A stretch of 36,241 nucleotides of DNA, taken from Mycobacteriales bacterium. Lineage in GTDB: Bacteria; Actinomycetota; Actinomycetes; JAFAQI01; DASSKL01. Numbering within the stretch: position 1 is the stretch's first letter; each line of letters begins with the position of its first letter. This document shows positions 9,842 to 29,523 of this stretch, piece after piece. The stretch covers positions 1-36,241 of the forward strand of contig DASSKL010000030.1 of assembly GCA_035690485.1 (NCBI GenBank). Direction: 5' to 3'. The notes beneath the pieces are model-generated. The model was given only the letters and a program-made list of their open reading frames with translations. It was not told the DNA's origin and did no database searches. Both the position numbers and the translations under genes were made by a program.

Positions 9842-11047
9842 GTGGCGGCATTGCGCGGGGCATTAGCCGCGGCGCTACGCGCCTATGCCGACGCGGACGT
9901 GACCGCCTTGCCTGACTCCGCACTCCTCGACGACGTTCAAGGTCTGCTTGCGGCCCGCGACCTCATCGACGGGTTGGTCGCCCGCCGGTTGGAGGTCGTG
10001 CACGTCCGCGATGCCGCCGTTTCCGAGACCGGACTGACCACCAAGGCCTGGTTGATCGCCCACTGCCGGCGCTCCGCCCATGAGGCGGGGCAGCGGATGT
10101 TCGTCGCCCGCTCGCTGGCGGGCCTGCCGGCCTTGGCGGCAACGTTCGAGGCCGGGGAGTGTGGACTTGATGCGGCACGGATCGTTGCCTCCGCGCTGCG
10201 CGACGTGCCCGAGTCCGAGCGGCCGGCCGCCGAGGGGATCCTGGTCGAGCTCGCCCGGCAGGCGCCGCCCGGGCACATCGCCACCGCGGCCGGTGAGGTG
10301 GTGCGCCGGTTGATCGACCAGGAGGCCGCCGAGGCAGCGGCGCAGCGCCGGTTCGAGCAGAGGCACCTGTCGATAGCCAAGACCTTCGGTGGGATGGTCG
10401 CGCTCTCGGGCCTGCTCGACCCGGAGTCCGGCGAGGTGGTGCTGTCCGCGATCGGCGCCCTCGCCCAGAAGAGCGGTTCCGATGACTCTCGTACGCCGGG
10501 GCAGCGCCGCGCCGACGCGCTGGTCGAGCTGGCGGGGCACCGGCTGGCGTGCCCCGGTCAGCCCGGCAGCGCCGGTGAGCGTCCGCAGCTGGTGGTCACG
10601 ATGGCCTGGGAGACCCTTGCCGCGCGGCTCGGCGATGCCGTGTTGGAGCGCAGCGGGCTGCCGCTGTCGGCTTCGGCGGCCCGGCGGCTGGCGTGTGACG
10701 CCGCGGTCATCCCCGCCGTGCTCGGTTCCGACGGTGCGGTTCTGGATGTCGGGCGGGCCGTGCGGGAGTGGCCGATCGCCATACGGCGGGCAGCGCGGTT
10801 GCGCGACCGCGGGTGCTCGTTCCCCGGCTGCGTGGTCGGGCTCGACGGCTGCGAGCTGCACCACATCGTTCACTGGGCCGAAGGCGGCGAGACGTCCTTG
10901 GCCAACAGCGCGCACCTCTGTCGCTTCCATCACCGGCTGGTGCACGAGCTGCACTGGACGATGCGTCGCAGCAGCCCGACCGAGGTGGTCTTCACCGATC
11001 CCCATGGTCGCGACGAGCGTGCACCGCCCGTCGCTCGCGCCGGATAA
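9842..11047 (+). CDS. DUF222 / HNH endonuclease domain protein (13E12-type)
   Basis: This 401-residue protein has an N-terminal helical DUF222 domain (about residues 20-260) and a C-terminal HNH nuclease domain (about 320-375). The latter carries CSFPGC, ELHHIVHWAEGGET and the closing HLCRFHHRLVHE. The paired Cys and His residues suggest a zinc-stabilised beta-beta-alpha-metal fold. The family includes the 13E12 repeat proteins of mycobacteria, several of which are LexA-controlled. The role is not known; DNA cleavage or repair is inferred from the domain. GTG 9842 has GAGGAGG upstream, and a perfect SOS box lies 28 bases before it. No terminal repeats mark it as a mobile element here. Confidence 0.88.
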   Translation: MAALRGALAAALRAYADADVTALPDSALLDDVQGLLAARDLIDGLVARRLEVVHVRDAAVSETGLTTKAWLIAHCRRSAHEAGQRMFVARSLAGLPALAATFEAGECGLDAARIVASALRDVPESERPAAEGILVELARQAPPGHIATAAGEVVRRLIDQEAAEAAAQRRFEQRHLSIAKTFGGMVALSGLLDPESGEVVLSAIGALAQKSGSDDSRTPGQRRADALVELAGHRLACPGQPGSAGERPQLVVTMAWETLAARLGDAVLERSGLPLSASAARRLACDAAVIPAVLGSDGAVLDVGRAVREWPIAIRRAARLRDRGCSFPGCVVGLDGCELHHIVHWAEGGETSLANSAHLCRFHHRLVHELHWTMRRSSPTEVVFTDPHGRDERAPPVARAG

Positions 11048-11074: not shown

Positions 11075-11094
11075 GTCGGTCCTGTACTACCGAC
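11075..11094. terminator. Possible hairpin between convergent genes
   Basis: GTCGGT (11075-11080) and ACCGAC (11089-11094) can pair around an eight-base loop, between the stops of the convergent HNH and methyltransferase genes. There is no T-tract on either side, so a terminator role is uncertain. Confidence 0.3.
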
Positions 11095-11824
11095 CCTGCT
11101 TGCGGGCGATCCACAGCCAGGTCTCGTAGGGCACTTGCAGCGCGCCGGAGGGGTTCGCATCCCGAAGGAGGGCTTCGATGTCAACCAGCAGTCGTTGCCG
11201 GGCGGTCGCTGGGAGGGCGCTGACGTAGCTCTTGCTGCGTTCCTCGGCGATCCAGTGGTCGATGCTGACCCTGCGCTGCCAGGGCACCGAGATGCGTTCG
11301 GGGCGGGCGAACAGGCCGGAGTCGTGCACGGGCTGGCCCCAGTCGATGTCCCGGTGGGTGCGGACGAAAGCGGGTGTCACCCCTTCGACGAGGTCGAGGT
11401 AGCGCTGGAACCAAGGCTCGTCGTCGACCCGGGCATGCGACCACCAGGCGGCCCATCGCCCACCTGGTGCGAGTACCCGGGCGGCTTCGGCGATCCGGCG
11501 CCGTTCGTCGAGCCAGTGCCAGGACTGCGCGAAGCACAGCAGATCGACGCTCGCCTCACGGAACGGCATCGCGGCGCCGTCCGCCACCGCGGCCCCGAAC
11601 AGCGCGGGGGCGTGGGCAACCGTGTGCTGCACCATTCGCGGGCCGATGTCCAAGGCCACGAGCCGGGCTCCTCGGGCAACGAGTGCCCGGGTAGCGAGGC
11701 CGGTGCCGCAGCCGCCTTCCACGACGAGCCCGGAGTCCAGCGGCACCAGGGCGTCGTACACCGCGTCGGGGTAGTCCGGGCGGCCGGAGGCGTAGTCCTC
11801 GACTACCGCGTCGAACGACACCAC
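11087..11824 (-). CDS. Class I SAM-dependent methyltransferase
   Basis: This 245-residue methyltransferase has the Rossmann fold. Motif I reads VVEGGCGTGLATRALVARG, followed by the acidic strand end LVALDIGPRMV, DGAAMPFREASVD and the motif around ARVLAPGGRWA. The C-terminal half carries many Trp residues, as in the methyltransferase_11 group acting on small molecules. The substrate is unknown. GTG 11824 has GGGAG nine bases upstream; GTG 11821 is the next choice. Its 5' side is unusual: a 132-bp array of hexanucleotide repeats begins 35 bases upstream, so its promoter must lie in or beyond the array, or it is read from the gene at 12050. Confidence 0.85.
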   Translation of the reverse strand: MVSFDAVVEDYASGRPDYPDAVYDALVPLDSGLVVEGGCGTGLATRALVARGARLVALDIGPRMVQHTVAHAPALFGAAVADGAAMPFREASVDLLCFAQSWHWLDERRRIAEAARVLAPGGRWAAWWSHARVDDEPWFQRYLDLVEGVTPAFVRTHRDIDWGQPVHDSGLFARPERISVPWQRRVSIDHWIAEERSKSYVSALPATARQRLLVDIEALLRDANPSGALQVPYETWLWIARKQGR

Positions 11825-11859
11825 CGATCGAATCTCCCACACGAGCAAGCCACAACCTC

Positions 11860-11991
11860 GAGGTCGAGGTCGAGGTCGAGGTCGAGGTCGGGGCCGGGGC
11901 CGGGGCCGGGGCCGGGGCCGGGGCCGGGGCCGGGGCCGGGGCCGGGGCCGAGGTCGAGGTCGGGGTCGGGGCCGAGGTCGAGGTCGAGGTC
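11860..11991. repeat. Hexanucleotide tandem array, 22 uninterrupted copies of GRGGYC
   Basis: Reading the plus strand there are 5 GAGGTC, 10 GGGGCC (11890-11949), 2 GAGGTC, 1 GGGGTC, 1 GGGGCC and 3 GAGGTC: exactly 22 six-base units with no gap. The array lies in the 225-bp space between the ketopantoate reductase-like gene and the methyltransferase, both on the minus strand. The ten GGGGCC units could form G-quadruplexes on the plus strand. Open frames through the array would encode Gly-Pro, Arg-Ser or Asp-Leu dipeptide repeats, but I find no reason to think it is translated. Confidence 0.97.
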
Positions 11992-12049
11992 GCGTGGCGC
12001 GTGCCGAGGGGGTTGCCCTGCCGTGCGAAGCGCGAGGTCGGGGCAGGTG

Positions 12050-13021
12050 TCAGTCGGCAGCGGAGAGCTCCTGCAGCAGGGCTGCTTCCGAGGTCTCGCC
12101 GGGCGGGCGTCGATGGAGCGCGGCATCGGCCGCTTTCGCCGCCAGCAGGGCGTTGACGGGAGTGGCGACGCCGTGCAGCCGGCCGAGCAGCACGACCTCG
12201 CCGTTGAGGTGGTCGGCCTCGATGTCGCCGGTACCCCGCTTGAGGCTCTGCCAGCTCGAGCCGCCTTCCCGCCGCTGACCTTCGACCGGGCGCAGGCGCA
12301 CCAGGTCGCCGCGCCGTTGCCGGTCCTCGTCGGCAGTTGCGACATCGAGCCCGGCGGCGGCGAAGACGTCCTCCGCCTCGGCGCGGGCTCGCCGCGCCAG
12401 TTCGCTGTCACGGTCGAGCGGACCGCAAAGCGCCTCGGCGGCGTTCGCGACGTTCATCACCAGCTTGCGGTACTTCCACCGCATGATGTCCGGCCGCGGT
12501 TCGGAGACGAAACCGGCGGCGGTCAGCGCCCCGGCGAGCGCCCCAGCGAGCTCGTCGGTGCCGGACGCGTAGCGACCGACGTCGAGGATGCCGCGGTGCG
12601 GTGTGCCGTTGCCGACGACGACGCCGGGCGTCGTGTGGCTCGCCGGGCACATCACACACATTCCGTAGACGCGGGAGAACAGGCGAAGGGCGGCCCGTTC
12701 GTTGTCCACCCCGTTCTGCGCGCAGACGACCGGTAGGTCGCCGGCGGCCGCGCGCAGCGCGAGGAGCGCGTCGGTGGTGTGCTGCGACTTCATCGCCAGC
12801 AGCACGACGTCGTCGGGAGTGAAGTCCACCTCGTCGGGATGGCCGGCGGCGGGCAGCCGGTAGGTCGCGGCTCCCTCCGGCAGCATGACCCGCAGGCCGC
12901 CCGAGCGGATGGCGTCGAGATGGGCGCCGCGCGCGATCGCGACGACCTCGGTCCCGGCGGCATGCAGCAGCCCGGCGATCAGTCCGCCGATCGCGCCCGC
13001 GCCATAGACGACGACTCGCAT
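12050..13021 (-). CDS. 2-dehydropantoate 2-reductase family protein (ketopantoate reductase-like)
   Basis: This 323-residue NADPH-dependent reductase is of the PanE/ApbA family, which reduces ketopantoate to pantoate for CoA synthesis. The N-terminal Rossmann motif VVVYGAGAIGGLIAGLL, KSQHT after the fourth strand, the QNGVDNE loop and the C-terminal helical segment WKYRKLVMNVANAAEAL with its catalytic-type Lys are visible. Members with other substrates share these features, so panE itself is not certain. ATG 13021 fits the family start (MRVVVYG). TACGCT ends seven bases before it, so the mRNA is probably leaderless. Confidence 0.85.
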   Translation of the reverse strand: MRVVVYGAGAIGGLIAGLLHAAGTEVVAIARGAHLDAIRSGGLRVMLPEGAATYRLPAAGHPDEVDFTPDDVVLLAMKSQHTTDALLALRAAAGDLPVVCAQNGVDNERAALRLFSRVYGMCVMCPASHTTPGVVVGNGTPHRGILDVGRYASGTDELAGALAGALTAAGFVSEPRPDIMRWKYRKLVMNVANAAEALCGPLDRDSELARRARAEAEDVFAAAGLDVATADEDRQRRGDLVRLRPVEGQRREGGSSWQSLKRGTGDIEADHLNGEVVLLGRLHGVATPVNALLAAKAADAALHRRPPGETSEAALLQELSAAD

Positions 13022-13124: not shown

Positions 13125-13188
13125 TGCCGGCGGCCACGGCGCGGGGCGGGCCCCTACTGCGTGATGTGCGCTGGGATGGCCGCCGGCA
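13125..13188. repeat. 12-bp inverted repeat between two minus-strand genes
   Basis: TGCCGGCGGCCA (13125-13136) is the exact reverse complement of TGGCCGCCGGCA (13177-13188), with a 40-base loop. It follows the 3' end of the secreted hydrolase gene and could act as a transcription stop or mRNA-end structure. It has no T-tract. Confidence 0.55.
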
Positions 13189-13234
13189 GTCACGGCGCGG
13201 GGCGGGCCCCTACCGCGTGCCGTGCGGTGGGATG
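13135..13234. repeat. 56-bp tandem duplication at the 3' end of the secreted hydrolase gene
   Basis: The stretch starting CACGGCGCGGGGCGGGCC at 13135 recurs at 13191 with a period of 56 bases and only a few mismatches over about 45 bases. The second copy contains the last codons and stop of the hydrolase gene (VIPPHGTR-stop). The first copy would read AIPAHITQ-stop, a decayed copy of the same gene end. Confidence 0.75.
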
Positions 13235-15546
13235 ACCGTGATCGTCGTCGCTCCCTTGGTGACGTCGAGGACGGCGCTGCCGTTGCGGTCGGCCGTCGCG
13301 ACGCGGTGCCCGGCCACGATCAGCTGCGTCCCGGGTGCGAGTCGGGTCAGGGTCAGCCTCGTTGCGCCGTCCGTCGTCACCGTCAGCCGGCCGCCGTCGG
13401 AAAGGCCGGCCGAGACCGCGTCGACGGCGAGCCGAGCGACGTTGGTCAGCGTGAGCGTCGCAGCCTTCGCCGGGGTCGGTTGGCCGAGCTGCCAGGTCAG
13501 CTGCTGCACCACCGACGGCGTCGCCTCGCCGGGGATCCGCGCGTTCTGGGTGCGCACCGGCGTGATCGTCGGCTGCGGCCGGGCCGCGACCGCGTCGAGG
13601 TGCGCGAGGGTTCCGGGGGCGCTGTCGCGCGCTCCCAAGTCACGGATCCAGTAGACCCCCGTCGGTCCGATGCCGAGGTCGGCGCGGGTCAGGTGCGGAT
13701 ACCAGGTGTAGGTGATGCGTGGCGGGTTCGTCGTACGCCGGGGGTCGCCGAGCTGCGCGATCTCGCTGTCGAACGCATCCTGGGTCGCCCAGACCAAGTG
13801 GTCCTCGGCCGGGTAGAGCTCGAAGTAGTAGCGGTAGCCGAGCGTGTCGATCGCCTGCACCTGCTGCAGCACGCTGGACACGGGTACCAGCTCGTCGAGG
13901 GTGCCCTGCCCGATGACGAACGGGTCCCAGCGGGCGCTGTCGAGCAGCGGTGTGGTGTCGCTGTCGGTGGTGCAGCGGCCCGCGCCGGCCGCGCCGCCGG
14001 CGCCCTCGGCGATCCGCACCCCGCACATGGGCGGGCCGGCGAGCGGCATCAGCTTCGCGAACAGGTCGGGGTAGGCGAGCCCGAGCTTGTAGGTGCCGAA
14101 GCCGCCCATCGAGTAGCCGGAGAGCACGGTGCGGTCCGGATCGAGGTCGTAGGCCTTGGCCAGCTCACGCCACACCTGCCAGAAGTCGACCTCGGCCTCG
14201 TCGAAGTACCAGCCGTCCGGCCCCAAGCCGAGCGTCGTCGCGCAGATCGAGTGCCGGTCCTCGCAGGCCTGCTGGAGCATCTGCGGGTCGAGCGCGCCGT
14301 ACTGGTTGTGCTGCACCGACAGCGAGTGCAGGATCCACGTCAGCGGAGTCGGCCGGCTGGGGTCGTAGGTCGTCGGCACGTAGACCGCGTAGGGCTGCAC
14401 CCGGCCGAGGAAGTTCGGCCGCAGGTCGCCGGCGCCGTTGCCGCTGTCGTGTACGACGCCCTGGCCGAGGTTCAGCGTCGTGACGTACCACCGGTTCGTG
14501 TAGCCGGTCGGGCGCGGCTCCGGGGTCGTGCGCTCGGCGGCGAGCTGGGCCCAGTCGACGGCGAGCGAGAACGGCGTGACGTCGCCCTCGGTCAGCGCCT
14601 CCGCCTGGTGGTCCTCCATCCAGAAGTTGCCGAGGTCGGTCAGCCGCGGCAGTCCCTTCGTGCCGAGCTGGTTGGGCGCGATGCCGTGGCGGTACTGCTC
14701 CGGCTCCTGCTGGTAGGTGCGGAACGTCACGTTGTAGACCGCCGGCTGTCCGGGCAGCGCGCCGTCGGACTGGCCGACCGGGGCGAACGCCGTACCGTCG
14801 GCGTTGGCCAGTCCGGCCGCGAGCCGCACCGTCCAGCTGCCGCTCGGCTGCAGGACCCTGTCGGGGATCCGGACGACGAACGAACGGGCCGCCGTGTCGA
14901 CGGTCACGGGCAGCTTCGCGAGCAGCTTGCCGGCGGCGGTCATGAGCCGGGCGCCGCGGCTCGACACCACCAGCGCACGGTCGAAGCCGTCGGAGCGCAC
15001 CCCGGCACCGGCCGGCCAGGGCCCTCCACCGGTCGCCGTGTTGCGGTCGAGGTCCATCGTCCACTCGGCGATCGGGACGGTCTTGTCCTCCAGCGTGTTC
15101 CAGTCGACGCGCCAGTAGGTCGCGTCCTCGCCCAGCCCGATCGCCGCCCCGAAGATGTCCGCGCCGTTGTTGGCCGCCTTCGGGTTGCTGTAGACGTAGG
15201 TGCCGTCGCTCGGCGCGAGTGCCGTGATCGGTTCGCCCACCTGGATGCCGGTGGCGCCGTGGTCGTCGTAGAGGAAGTCCGACCAGAACGTCGCGCCGCC
15301 CGCGAGCCGGCCGGTGCCCGAGGTGCGCGGGAACTGCTCGCCGAACGGCCAGCCCTTCGGGGTCGGCAGCGTCGGCTCCGGCTCGGTCGCGGCGGGCGGC
15401 GCCCCGGCGGGCAGCCCTCGCGGCGCACTCGCCGCGGGCGCGGCTGCGGGCCGGGCGGCGAAGGCCCCGGAGGTGACGGCACCGGTCCCGGCCGCGAGCA
15501 CGACGACGCCGAGCAGGGCGGTACGACGGACGGACGAGCGGCGCAC
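13210..15546 (-). CDS. Large secreted alpha/beta hydrolase (esterase/peptidase-like) with N-terminal sugar-binding-like domain
   Basis: This 778-residue exported protein has a signal peptide at residues 1 to about 35: basic start RRSSVRR, then ALLGVVVLAAGTGAVTSG and an Ala-rich cleavage region. A Pro/Ala linker is followed, at about 75-330, by a beta-rich domain resembling the glucodextranase C-terminal type (WRVDWNTLEDK, WTMDLDRNTATGG). The catalytic domain, about 370-640, carries LSGYSMGGFGTYKLG with Ser479 as nucleophile and a late AEDHLVW His. The last 100 residues form a small beta domain. The substrate is unknown. I chose GTG 15546, with GGGAG five bases upstream; GTG 15570 is also in frame. 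SVRRTALL is only weakly Tat-like. Confidence 0.8.
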   Translation of the reverse strand: MRRSSVRRTALLGVVVLAAGTGAVTSGAFAARPAAAPAASAPRGLPAGAPPAATEPEPTLPTPKGWPFGEQFPRTSGTGRLAGGATFWSDFLYDDHGATGIQVGEPITALAPSDGTYVYSNPKAANNGADIFGAAIGLGEDATYWRVDWNTLEDKTVPIAEWTMDLDRNTATGGGPWPAGAGVRSDGFDRALVVSSRGARLMTAAGKLLAKLPVTVDTAARSFVVRIPDRVLQPSGSWTVRLAAGLANADGTAFAPVGQSDGALPGQPAVYNVTFRTYQQEPEQYRHGIAPNQLGTKGLPRLTDLGNFWMEDHQAEALTEGDVTPFSLAVDWAQLAAERTTPEPRPTGYTNRWYVTTLNLGQGVVHDSGNGAGDLRPNFLGRVQPYAVYVPTTYDPSRPTPLTWILHSLSVQHNQYGALDPQMLQQACEDRHSICATTLGLGPDGWYFDEAEVDFWQVWRELAKAYDLDPDRTVLSGYSMGGFGTYKLGLAYPDLFAKLMPLAGPPMCGVRIAEGAGGAAGAGRCTTDSDTTPLLDSARWDPFVIGQGTLDELVPVSSVLQQVQAIDTLGYRYYFELYPAEDHLVWATQDAFDSEIAQLGDPRRTTNPPRITYTWYPHLTRADLGIGPTGVYWIRDLGARDSAPGTLAHLDAVAARPQPTITPVRTQNARIPGEATPSVVQQLTWQLGQPTPAKAATLTLTNVARLAVDAVSAGLSDGGRLTVTTDGATRLTLTRLAPGTQLIVAGHRVATADRNGSAVLDVTKGATTITVIPPHGTR

Positions 15547-27168: not shown

Positions 27169-29523
27169 TCAGGCGGGTGGGCCCACCAGCCAGAGCGTGC
27201 CGAGGGGCGGCACCCGCAGCGTGGCGGACGCGGGCTGGCCGTGCCAGGGATCCGCGACGGCGCGGACGACGCCCATGTTGCCGACGCCGCTGCCCATGTA
27301 GACGTCGGCGTCGGTGTTGACCGCCTCGATCCAGTCGCCGACGCGGGGCAGCCCCAGCCGGTAGCCCTCGTGCGGCACGGCGGCGAAGTTCGCCACGCAG
27401 GCGAGCACCGACCCGTCGTCGCCCACCCGCAGGAAGGAGAAGACGTTGTTGCCCGCGTCGTTGGCGTCGATCCAGTGGAAGCCCTCCGGCGCGGCGTCCT
27501 GCGACCACAGCGCAGCCGACTCGCGGTAGACCCCGTTGAGGTCGTGGACCAGTGCGTGGATGCCCCTGTGGTCGGGCAGGTCGAGCAGCCACCAGTCGAG
27601 CGAACGGGCCTCGGACCACTCGGCGATCTGGCCGAACTCGCTGCCCATGAAGAGCAGCTGCTTGCCGGGGTGCGCCCACATGTAGGCGAGCATCGCCCGC
27701 AGGTTGGCCAGCTGCTGCCAGCGGTCACCCGGCATCTTCGACAGCAGGGAGCCCTTGCCGTGCACGACCTCGTCGTGCGAGATCGGCAGGATGAAGTTCT
27801 CGGTGAACGCGTAGACCATCGAGAACGTCATCTGGTGGTGGTGGTACTGCCGGTAGATCGGCTCCTTGCTGACGTAGTCCAAGGAGTCGTGCATCCAGCC
27901 CATGTTCCACTTGAAGCCGAAGCCGAGACCGCCCAGGTAGGTAGGCCGTGACACTCCGGGCCACGCGGTCGACTCCTCCGCGACGGTGATGACGCCGGGC
28001 ACCCGCTTGTAGACGGTGGCGTTCATCTCCTGCAGGAACTCGATGGCGTCGAGGTTCTCCCGGCCGCCGAAGCGGTTGGGCACCCACTCGCCGTCCTTGC
28101 GCGAGTAGTCGAGGTAGAGCATCGACGCGACGGCGTCGACCCGCAGCCCGTCGATGTGGAACTTCTCGCACCAGTAGACGGCGTTGGCGACGAGGAAGTT
28201 GCGCACCTCGCGGCGGCCGAAGTTGAAGACGTAGGTGCCCCAGTCGGGGTGCTCGCCCAGCCGCGGGTCGGCGTGCTCGTAGAGCGCCGTGCCGTCGAAG
28301 CGGCCGAGCGACCACTCGTCCTTCGGGAAGTGCGCGGGCACCCAGTCGACCAGCACACCGATGCCGGCCTGGTGCAGCCGGTCGACCAGGTAGCGGAACT
28401 CGTCGGGGGAGCCGAAGCGCGACGTCGGGGCGAAGTAGGACGACACCTGGTAGCCCCACGACCCGCCGAACGGGTGCTCCATCACCGGCAGGAACTCGAC
28501 GTGCGTGAAGCCGGTCTCGATCACGTAGTCGACGAGCTGCTCGGCGAGCTCCTTGTAGGACAGGCCTTGCCGCCAGGACCCGAGGTGGACCTCGTAGATG
28601 CTCACCGCGGACTTCAGCCAGTCGCGTTGCCGCTCCTGGCACCAGTCGCCGTCGCCCCACTCGTAGTCGGAGGTGAAGACGACCGATCCGGTCGCGGGCG
28701 GGTGCTCGGTGTGGAACGCCATCGGGTCGGCCTTCTGCCGCCACTGGCCGTCGGCGCCGAGGATGTCGAACTTGTAGGTCGTGCCGTTGCCGACCCCGGG
28801 TACGAACAGCTCCCACACGCCGCTCGATCCGAGCGTGCGCATCGGGTGCGCGCGGCCGTCCCAGTGGTTGAAGTCGCCGGTGACGCGTACGCCGCGCGCG
28901 CTGGGCGCCCAGACGGCGAACGACGTGCCGGTGATCGGGCCGGCGAGGCTGTCGAACCGGCGCACGTGCGCGCCGAGCACCTCCCACAGCTGCTCGTGGC
29001 GCCCCTCGCCGATGAGGTGCAGGTCGAGCTCGCCGAGGGTCGGCAGGTAGCGGTAGGGGTCGTCCTGCAGGTGCGGGTGGCCGTCGGCGTAGGCCACCTC
29101 GAGCCGGTAGTCGGGGACCTCTGCCATCGGCAGCAGCGCCACCCAGATCCCGGAGTGCTCGTGCTCCATCGGGAAGCGCTGGTCGCCGACGACGACCGTC
29201 ACGCTGTGCGCGCCGTGGCGCAGCGCCCGCACGGTCACGGCGGTGCCGTGCGGGTGCGCGCCGAGGATGCCGTGCGGGTCGTGGTGGACGCCGCCGACGA
29301 GCCGGTCGAGCTCCTCGCGACCGACCGGTCGTGGTCGTGGAGCGTCGGGCGTCGCCGGCTTGGTCGCCGCCGCCTTGGTCGCCGCCGCCTTGGTCGGGGC
29401 TCCCTTCGCAGCGGCGGCCGTCGTCGGGGCGGTCGCCTGCTTCGCGGCGGGGGTTTTCTTCGCCTCGGGGGTCTTCTTCGCGGCAGTCGTCTTCTTCTTC
29501 GCGGGGCGCTGCTCGTCGGCCAT
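27169..29523 (-). CDS. glgB: 1,4-alpha-glucan branching enzyme with a Lys/Ala/Pro-rich N-terminal tail
   Basis: GlgB makes alpha-1,6 branches in alpha-glucan made by GlgE. The 784 residues comprise a basic tail (1 to about 62), two carbohydrate-binding beta domains (about 70-290), the GH13 barrel (about 300-670) and a C-terminal beta domain. The catalytic Asp463 ([10 protein letters not shown]), Glu516 (VAEEST) and Asp584 (ISHDEVVHG) are present. The tail is built of AKK, TKAAA and KTP units like histone H1 and is encoded partly by 15-bp tandem repeats (29360-29389). ATG 29523 has GGTGAG upstream and lies three bases after the mak stop. It is the last gene of the glgE operon. Confidence 0.95.
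29360..29395. repeat. 15-bp tandem repeats encoding the TKAAA units of the GlgB tail
   Basis: TTGGTCGCCGCCGCC occurs at 29360-29374 and 29375-29389, followed by a partial third copy (TTGGTC). In the glgB frame each unit reads Gly/Ala-rich codons for AAATK. Copy number could vary between strains without shifting the frame. Confidence 0.8.

Follow-up and report, generated by a model that had tools for sequence, protein, structure and literature searches.

Phase-variation microsatellites of bacterial pathogens are short tandem units near the start of a gene that are prone to slippage. A second kind of repeat, the G-rich heptamers of Xanthomonas and Nostoc (GGGAATC; GGGGA(T/C)T), is built of short G-tract units with quadruplex potential that lie mostly between genes and on either strand relative to them; these heptamers form dispersed families, and for a single Xanthomonas genome the analysis took in 117 intergenic regions (PMC4692102). 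A third point of comparison is the hexanucleotide GGGGCC of human C9orf72, a known quadruplex former in vitro (e.g. PMC10300829).

Here we describe an array of GRGGYC hexamers in the draft genome of an uncultured actinobacterium (3.13 Mb, 102 contigs, 72% G+C). The stretch of DNA that was analysed, 36,241 nucleotides in length, is referred to as the window, and its features are collected in Table 1. The array resembles the pathogen microsatellites in having short tandem units near a gene start for which slippage is expected. Unlike them, it comes with no recognisable promoter, no effect on reading frame and no surface or DNA-modifying target. It shares with the heptamers the short G-tract units, the quadruplex potential and the intergenic position, whereas GRGGYC does not recur as a family at many intergenic sites: a pattern search of the whole genome found only this one site with runs of at least four units. 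The unit GGGGCC is identical to that of C9orf72, a coincidence of unit only. The array is bacterial, it holds ten GGGGCC copies in its central block, and its G-rich strand serves as template for the genes on either side.

The original prediction of an uninterrupted, 132-bp array of 22 GRGGYC copies with a run of ten GGGGCC was borne out both by direct reading of the sequence and by TRF, which reported positions 11858-11992 (period 6, 22.5 copies) as the sole strong period-6 array of the window. The period-6 run score of the array was 97. Random resampling of the window gave scores of 7-11 in 30 first-order sequences, and of 8-14 in 30 fifth-order sequences from which the array had been removed. 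These are uninterrupted head-to-tail units within the 1-9 nt range and beyond chance, as in bacterial microsatellites. Base-by-base reading of 2.19 Mb (~70% of the genome; the pattern searches covered all of it) gave 110 runs of two GRGGYC units, two runs of three and one of 22. Doublets that are common, triplets that are rare and one run of 22 are the pattern of a runaway seed. A detached near-copy of two units closer to panE (GAGGTCGGGGCA; Table 1) is possibly a relic or seed of the array, or possibly a chance match, since there are ten such places in the whole window.

Table 1. Features of the panE-methyltransferase gap and its flanking genes (window coordinates)
Feature	Position	Strand	Basis or remark
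panE, 2-dehydropantoate 2-reductase	12050-13021	-	TIGR00745, score above cut-off; longest ORF extends to 13081
Near-copy GAGGTCGGGGCA	12034-12045	+	11/12 match to two units
22-unit GRGGYC tandem array, 132 bp	11860-11991	+	sequence, TRF, run score
GAGGTC x2, GGGGTC, GGGGCC, GAGGTC x3	11950-11991	+	unit reading
Ten-unit GGGGCC block, quadruplex motif	11890-11949	+	unit reading; G4Hunter mean 2.0
Five-unit GAGGTC block	11860-11889	+	unit reading
Array edge, AACCTC beside first GAGGTC, giving palindrome ACCTCGAGGT	11855-11864	.	sequence reading
Class I SAM-dependent methyltransferase (Methyltransf_11)	11087-11848	-	longest ORF from TTG 11848
GGGAG, Shine-Dalgarno-like	11834-11838	-	9 nt before GTG 11824

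The array occupies a 225-bp gap between panE, whose end lies 58 bp from it, and the methyltransferase gene. Both genes are on the minus strand and co-directional, and the gap is thus 3' of panE on the strand of the methyltransferase. The methyltransferase probably starts at GTG 11824 or 11821, because its homologues align only from residue 9-12 of the longest ORF and a GGGAG stands 9 nt before the former codon (Table 1). With a start at GTG 11824 the array begins 35 bases upstream of the gene, as had been proposed; with the TTG of the longest ORF the distance would shrink to 11 bases. Two other repeats were seen in the window: a 56-bp unit that occurs twice in tandem, with 87% matching, immediately upstream of panE (13126-13238), and period-15 and period-18 tandem repeats (29353-29497) at the start of a minus-strand ORF (27169-29523).

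The methyltransferase matches Methyltransf_11 and Methyltransf_25, its BioC and UbiE-like scores fall far below the NCBIfam cut-offs, and the nearest solved chain is the HvrF methyltransferase. From these matches it resembles a small-molecule enzyme rather than a phase-variable DNA methyltransferase, the kind of gene that makes a phasevarion. Homologues were compared both in genomes of the same order, the nearest available, and in other actinobacterial genomes. None of six homologues from the latter (46-50% identical) has such an array in the 600 bp upstream, and panE was not found in their examined flanks. In the same-order genomes, the best match to panE and the best match to the methyltransferase are on separate contigs. 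On these comparisons we reject conserved synteny of the two genes, and the junction that holds the array appears to be specific to this lineage.

Taken together, we favour the reading that the array is an intergenic microsatellite made by slipped-strand replication, with a probability of about three in four. A short GAGGTC run would have grown by unit duplication, one unit would have mutated by way of GGGGTC to GGGGCC, and GGGGCC would then have been amplified to ten copies. The order of the blocks and the single GGGGTC unit, which is one step from each of the two main units, support the earlier proposal that GGGGCC expanded inside an older GAGGTC tract. With no essential signal evident in it, the gap would tolerate this growth. 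Copy number probably differs among strains. Should the array affect the methyltransferase, whether by way of transcript structure or of a template-strand quadruplex, the effect would be expected to be incidental.

A survey of the class places the array in a wider setting. At least eight GRGGYC units in a row were present in 13 of 395 sampled genomes, this one included. Of the 12 other arrays, nine fall within the predicted coding frames of genes that are unrelated, and three (L042, L048, L051) fall outside predicted genes, according to a purpose-made codon-usage score by which single assignments may be wrong; no homologue of the methyltransferase was found near any of the 12. One of the loci in another genome of the class (L040, 1501-1572) is an array of GGGGCC and GAGGTC blocks inside a transporter-like gene, where it encodes Pro-Ala and Thr-Ser repeats. 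A mirrored control pattern occurred in ~28 of the 395 genomes, more than the 13 with GRGGYC, which led us to reject GRGGYC as a special motif favoured in the class, although the control is imperfect in that reversed GGGGCC is a rotation of itself. G-tract arrays with periods of 8, 5 and 6 were present in 7, 6 and 10 of 40 genomes, respectively, this one included (period 6 counted from at least eight periods), and a few of the matches were plain poly-G runs. The view that long simple repeats are rare in actinobacteria, part of the original prediction, is thus too strong. Surveys, as far as they are cited in PMC4692102, found longer repeat runs more often in non-pathogens and in bacteria whose genomes are large and G+C-rich; the base composition of this genome fits that trend, though its size (3.1 Mb) is modest for it. 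Direct precedent for hexanucleotide arrays in actinobacteria was not found in the open-access literature searched.

The strongest alternative, which we consider unlikely, is that the array is a contingency element whose slippage-driven length tunes or switches expression of the methyltransferase through spacing, through transcript structure or through a template-strand quadruplex that impedes RNA polymerase. Several properties of the locus are compatible with such a role. The array lies 35 bp from the probable start of the gene, and slippage is to be expected in its ten perfect GGGGCC units, which also carry quadruplex motifs. The sequence at 11890-11947 has at least four G-tracts of at least three G with short loops, in agreement with the quadruplex motif of the original prediction, and G-quadruplex formation in vitro is expected of it. 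The plus strand is the G-rich one and hence the template for the methyltransferase, so that this part of the original prediction also agrees with what was read. Quadruplexes have been reported to affect bacterial expression in ways that vary with strand and location (PMC4692102).

Against such a role, consensus scans found no sigma70-like site in the gap, TANNNT is absent from both of its strands, and the array therefore does not lie within or next to a recognisable promoter. Together with the position of the gap 3' of a same-strand panE, this speaks against the array being located at a promoter, as had been supposed. Such scans are weak in actinobacteria and can miss promoters there, so that they do no more than make a promoter role less likely. 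The gap was also considered as the site of a structured RNA or of a terminator, and both were rejected: no terminator-like site was found, and folding of the gap transcript against shuffles was unremarkable (z = -1.35). In addition, the predicted target looks like a small-molecule methyltransferase and not like a surface or DNA-modifying protein, the array is not conserved at its homologues, and changes in hexamer copy number leave the reading frame unaltered. The array may have a role in expression control; we prefer slippage in a permissive gap.

We regard misassembly as an improbable source of the array or of its length. It is suggested by the draft state of the genome, with its 102 contigs, and by the 132 bp of the array, which are near common short-read lengths. 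Against it, no pure run exceeds 60 bp and the blocks differ in their units, which should allow ordinary k-mers to anchor the array, and other genomes of the class have similar arrays on megabase-sized contigs (e.g. G116:C1, G137:C1, G385:C1).

Two further large intergenic G-tract arrays are present in the same genome, with units and neighbour genes that differ from those of the window array. The first (L111, G000:C37, 2760-2877) consists of 14.8 copies of an 8-mer, CCGCTGGG, which is GGGCCGCT-like; it starts a few bases past a TAG stop codon and is the longest quadruplex motif in the 2.19 Mb read. The second (L092, G000:C17, 14262-14341) consists of 16 copies of the 5-mer GGGCT between two convergent predicted genes. 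Contig C17 also carries tandem arrays with units of 17, 33, 51 and 100 bp at about 10400-10960. Of the four longest quadruplex motifs in the 2.19 Mb, three belong to the window array and these two, and only one comparable array (periods 5, 6 and 8 considered) was present among 12 genomes of the same order. These observations may argue for a lineage-specific tendency or role and against pure slippage; for a tendency towards G-tract arrays they are mildly suggestive, coming from draft genomes and small numbers. A more specific reading seems to us improbable, namely that the lineage gathers long G-tract arrays with units of differing length between its genes, where they would act as quadruplex-based, length-tunable transcription brakes at three or more sites including the panE-methyltransferase gap.

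Finally, a coding array, either as an Arg-Pro linker in the methyltransferase frame or as a join of panE to the methyltransferase by readthrough of the panE stop, can be set aside as very improbable: the frame shared by the two genes is open from the panE TGA to the methyltransferase (11849-12052) and reads every unit as Arg-Pro with only synonymous changes (CGA/CGG, CCT/CCC), but that frame has no ATG, GTG or TTG upstream of TTG 11848, a stop-free repeat is open in all frames, both variable sites would fall at third codon positions of one given frame by chance about 1 time in 9, PanE ends where its homologues end (matches reach residue 310-321 of 323), and the homologous methyltransferases align only downstream of the longest-ORF start. 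With no usual start codon and a hexamer that is open in every frame, the Arg-Pro frame is most likely a coincidence.

If the array is neutral, it may serve as a marker for strain typing, and it records naturally, in a bacterium, the expansion of GGGGCC, a repeat unit that underlies a neurological disease in humans. If instead its length tunes expression, it would be an uncommon example of a switch built on long repeat units in an actinobacterium of high G+C content.
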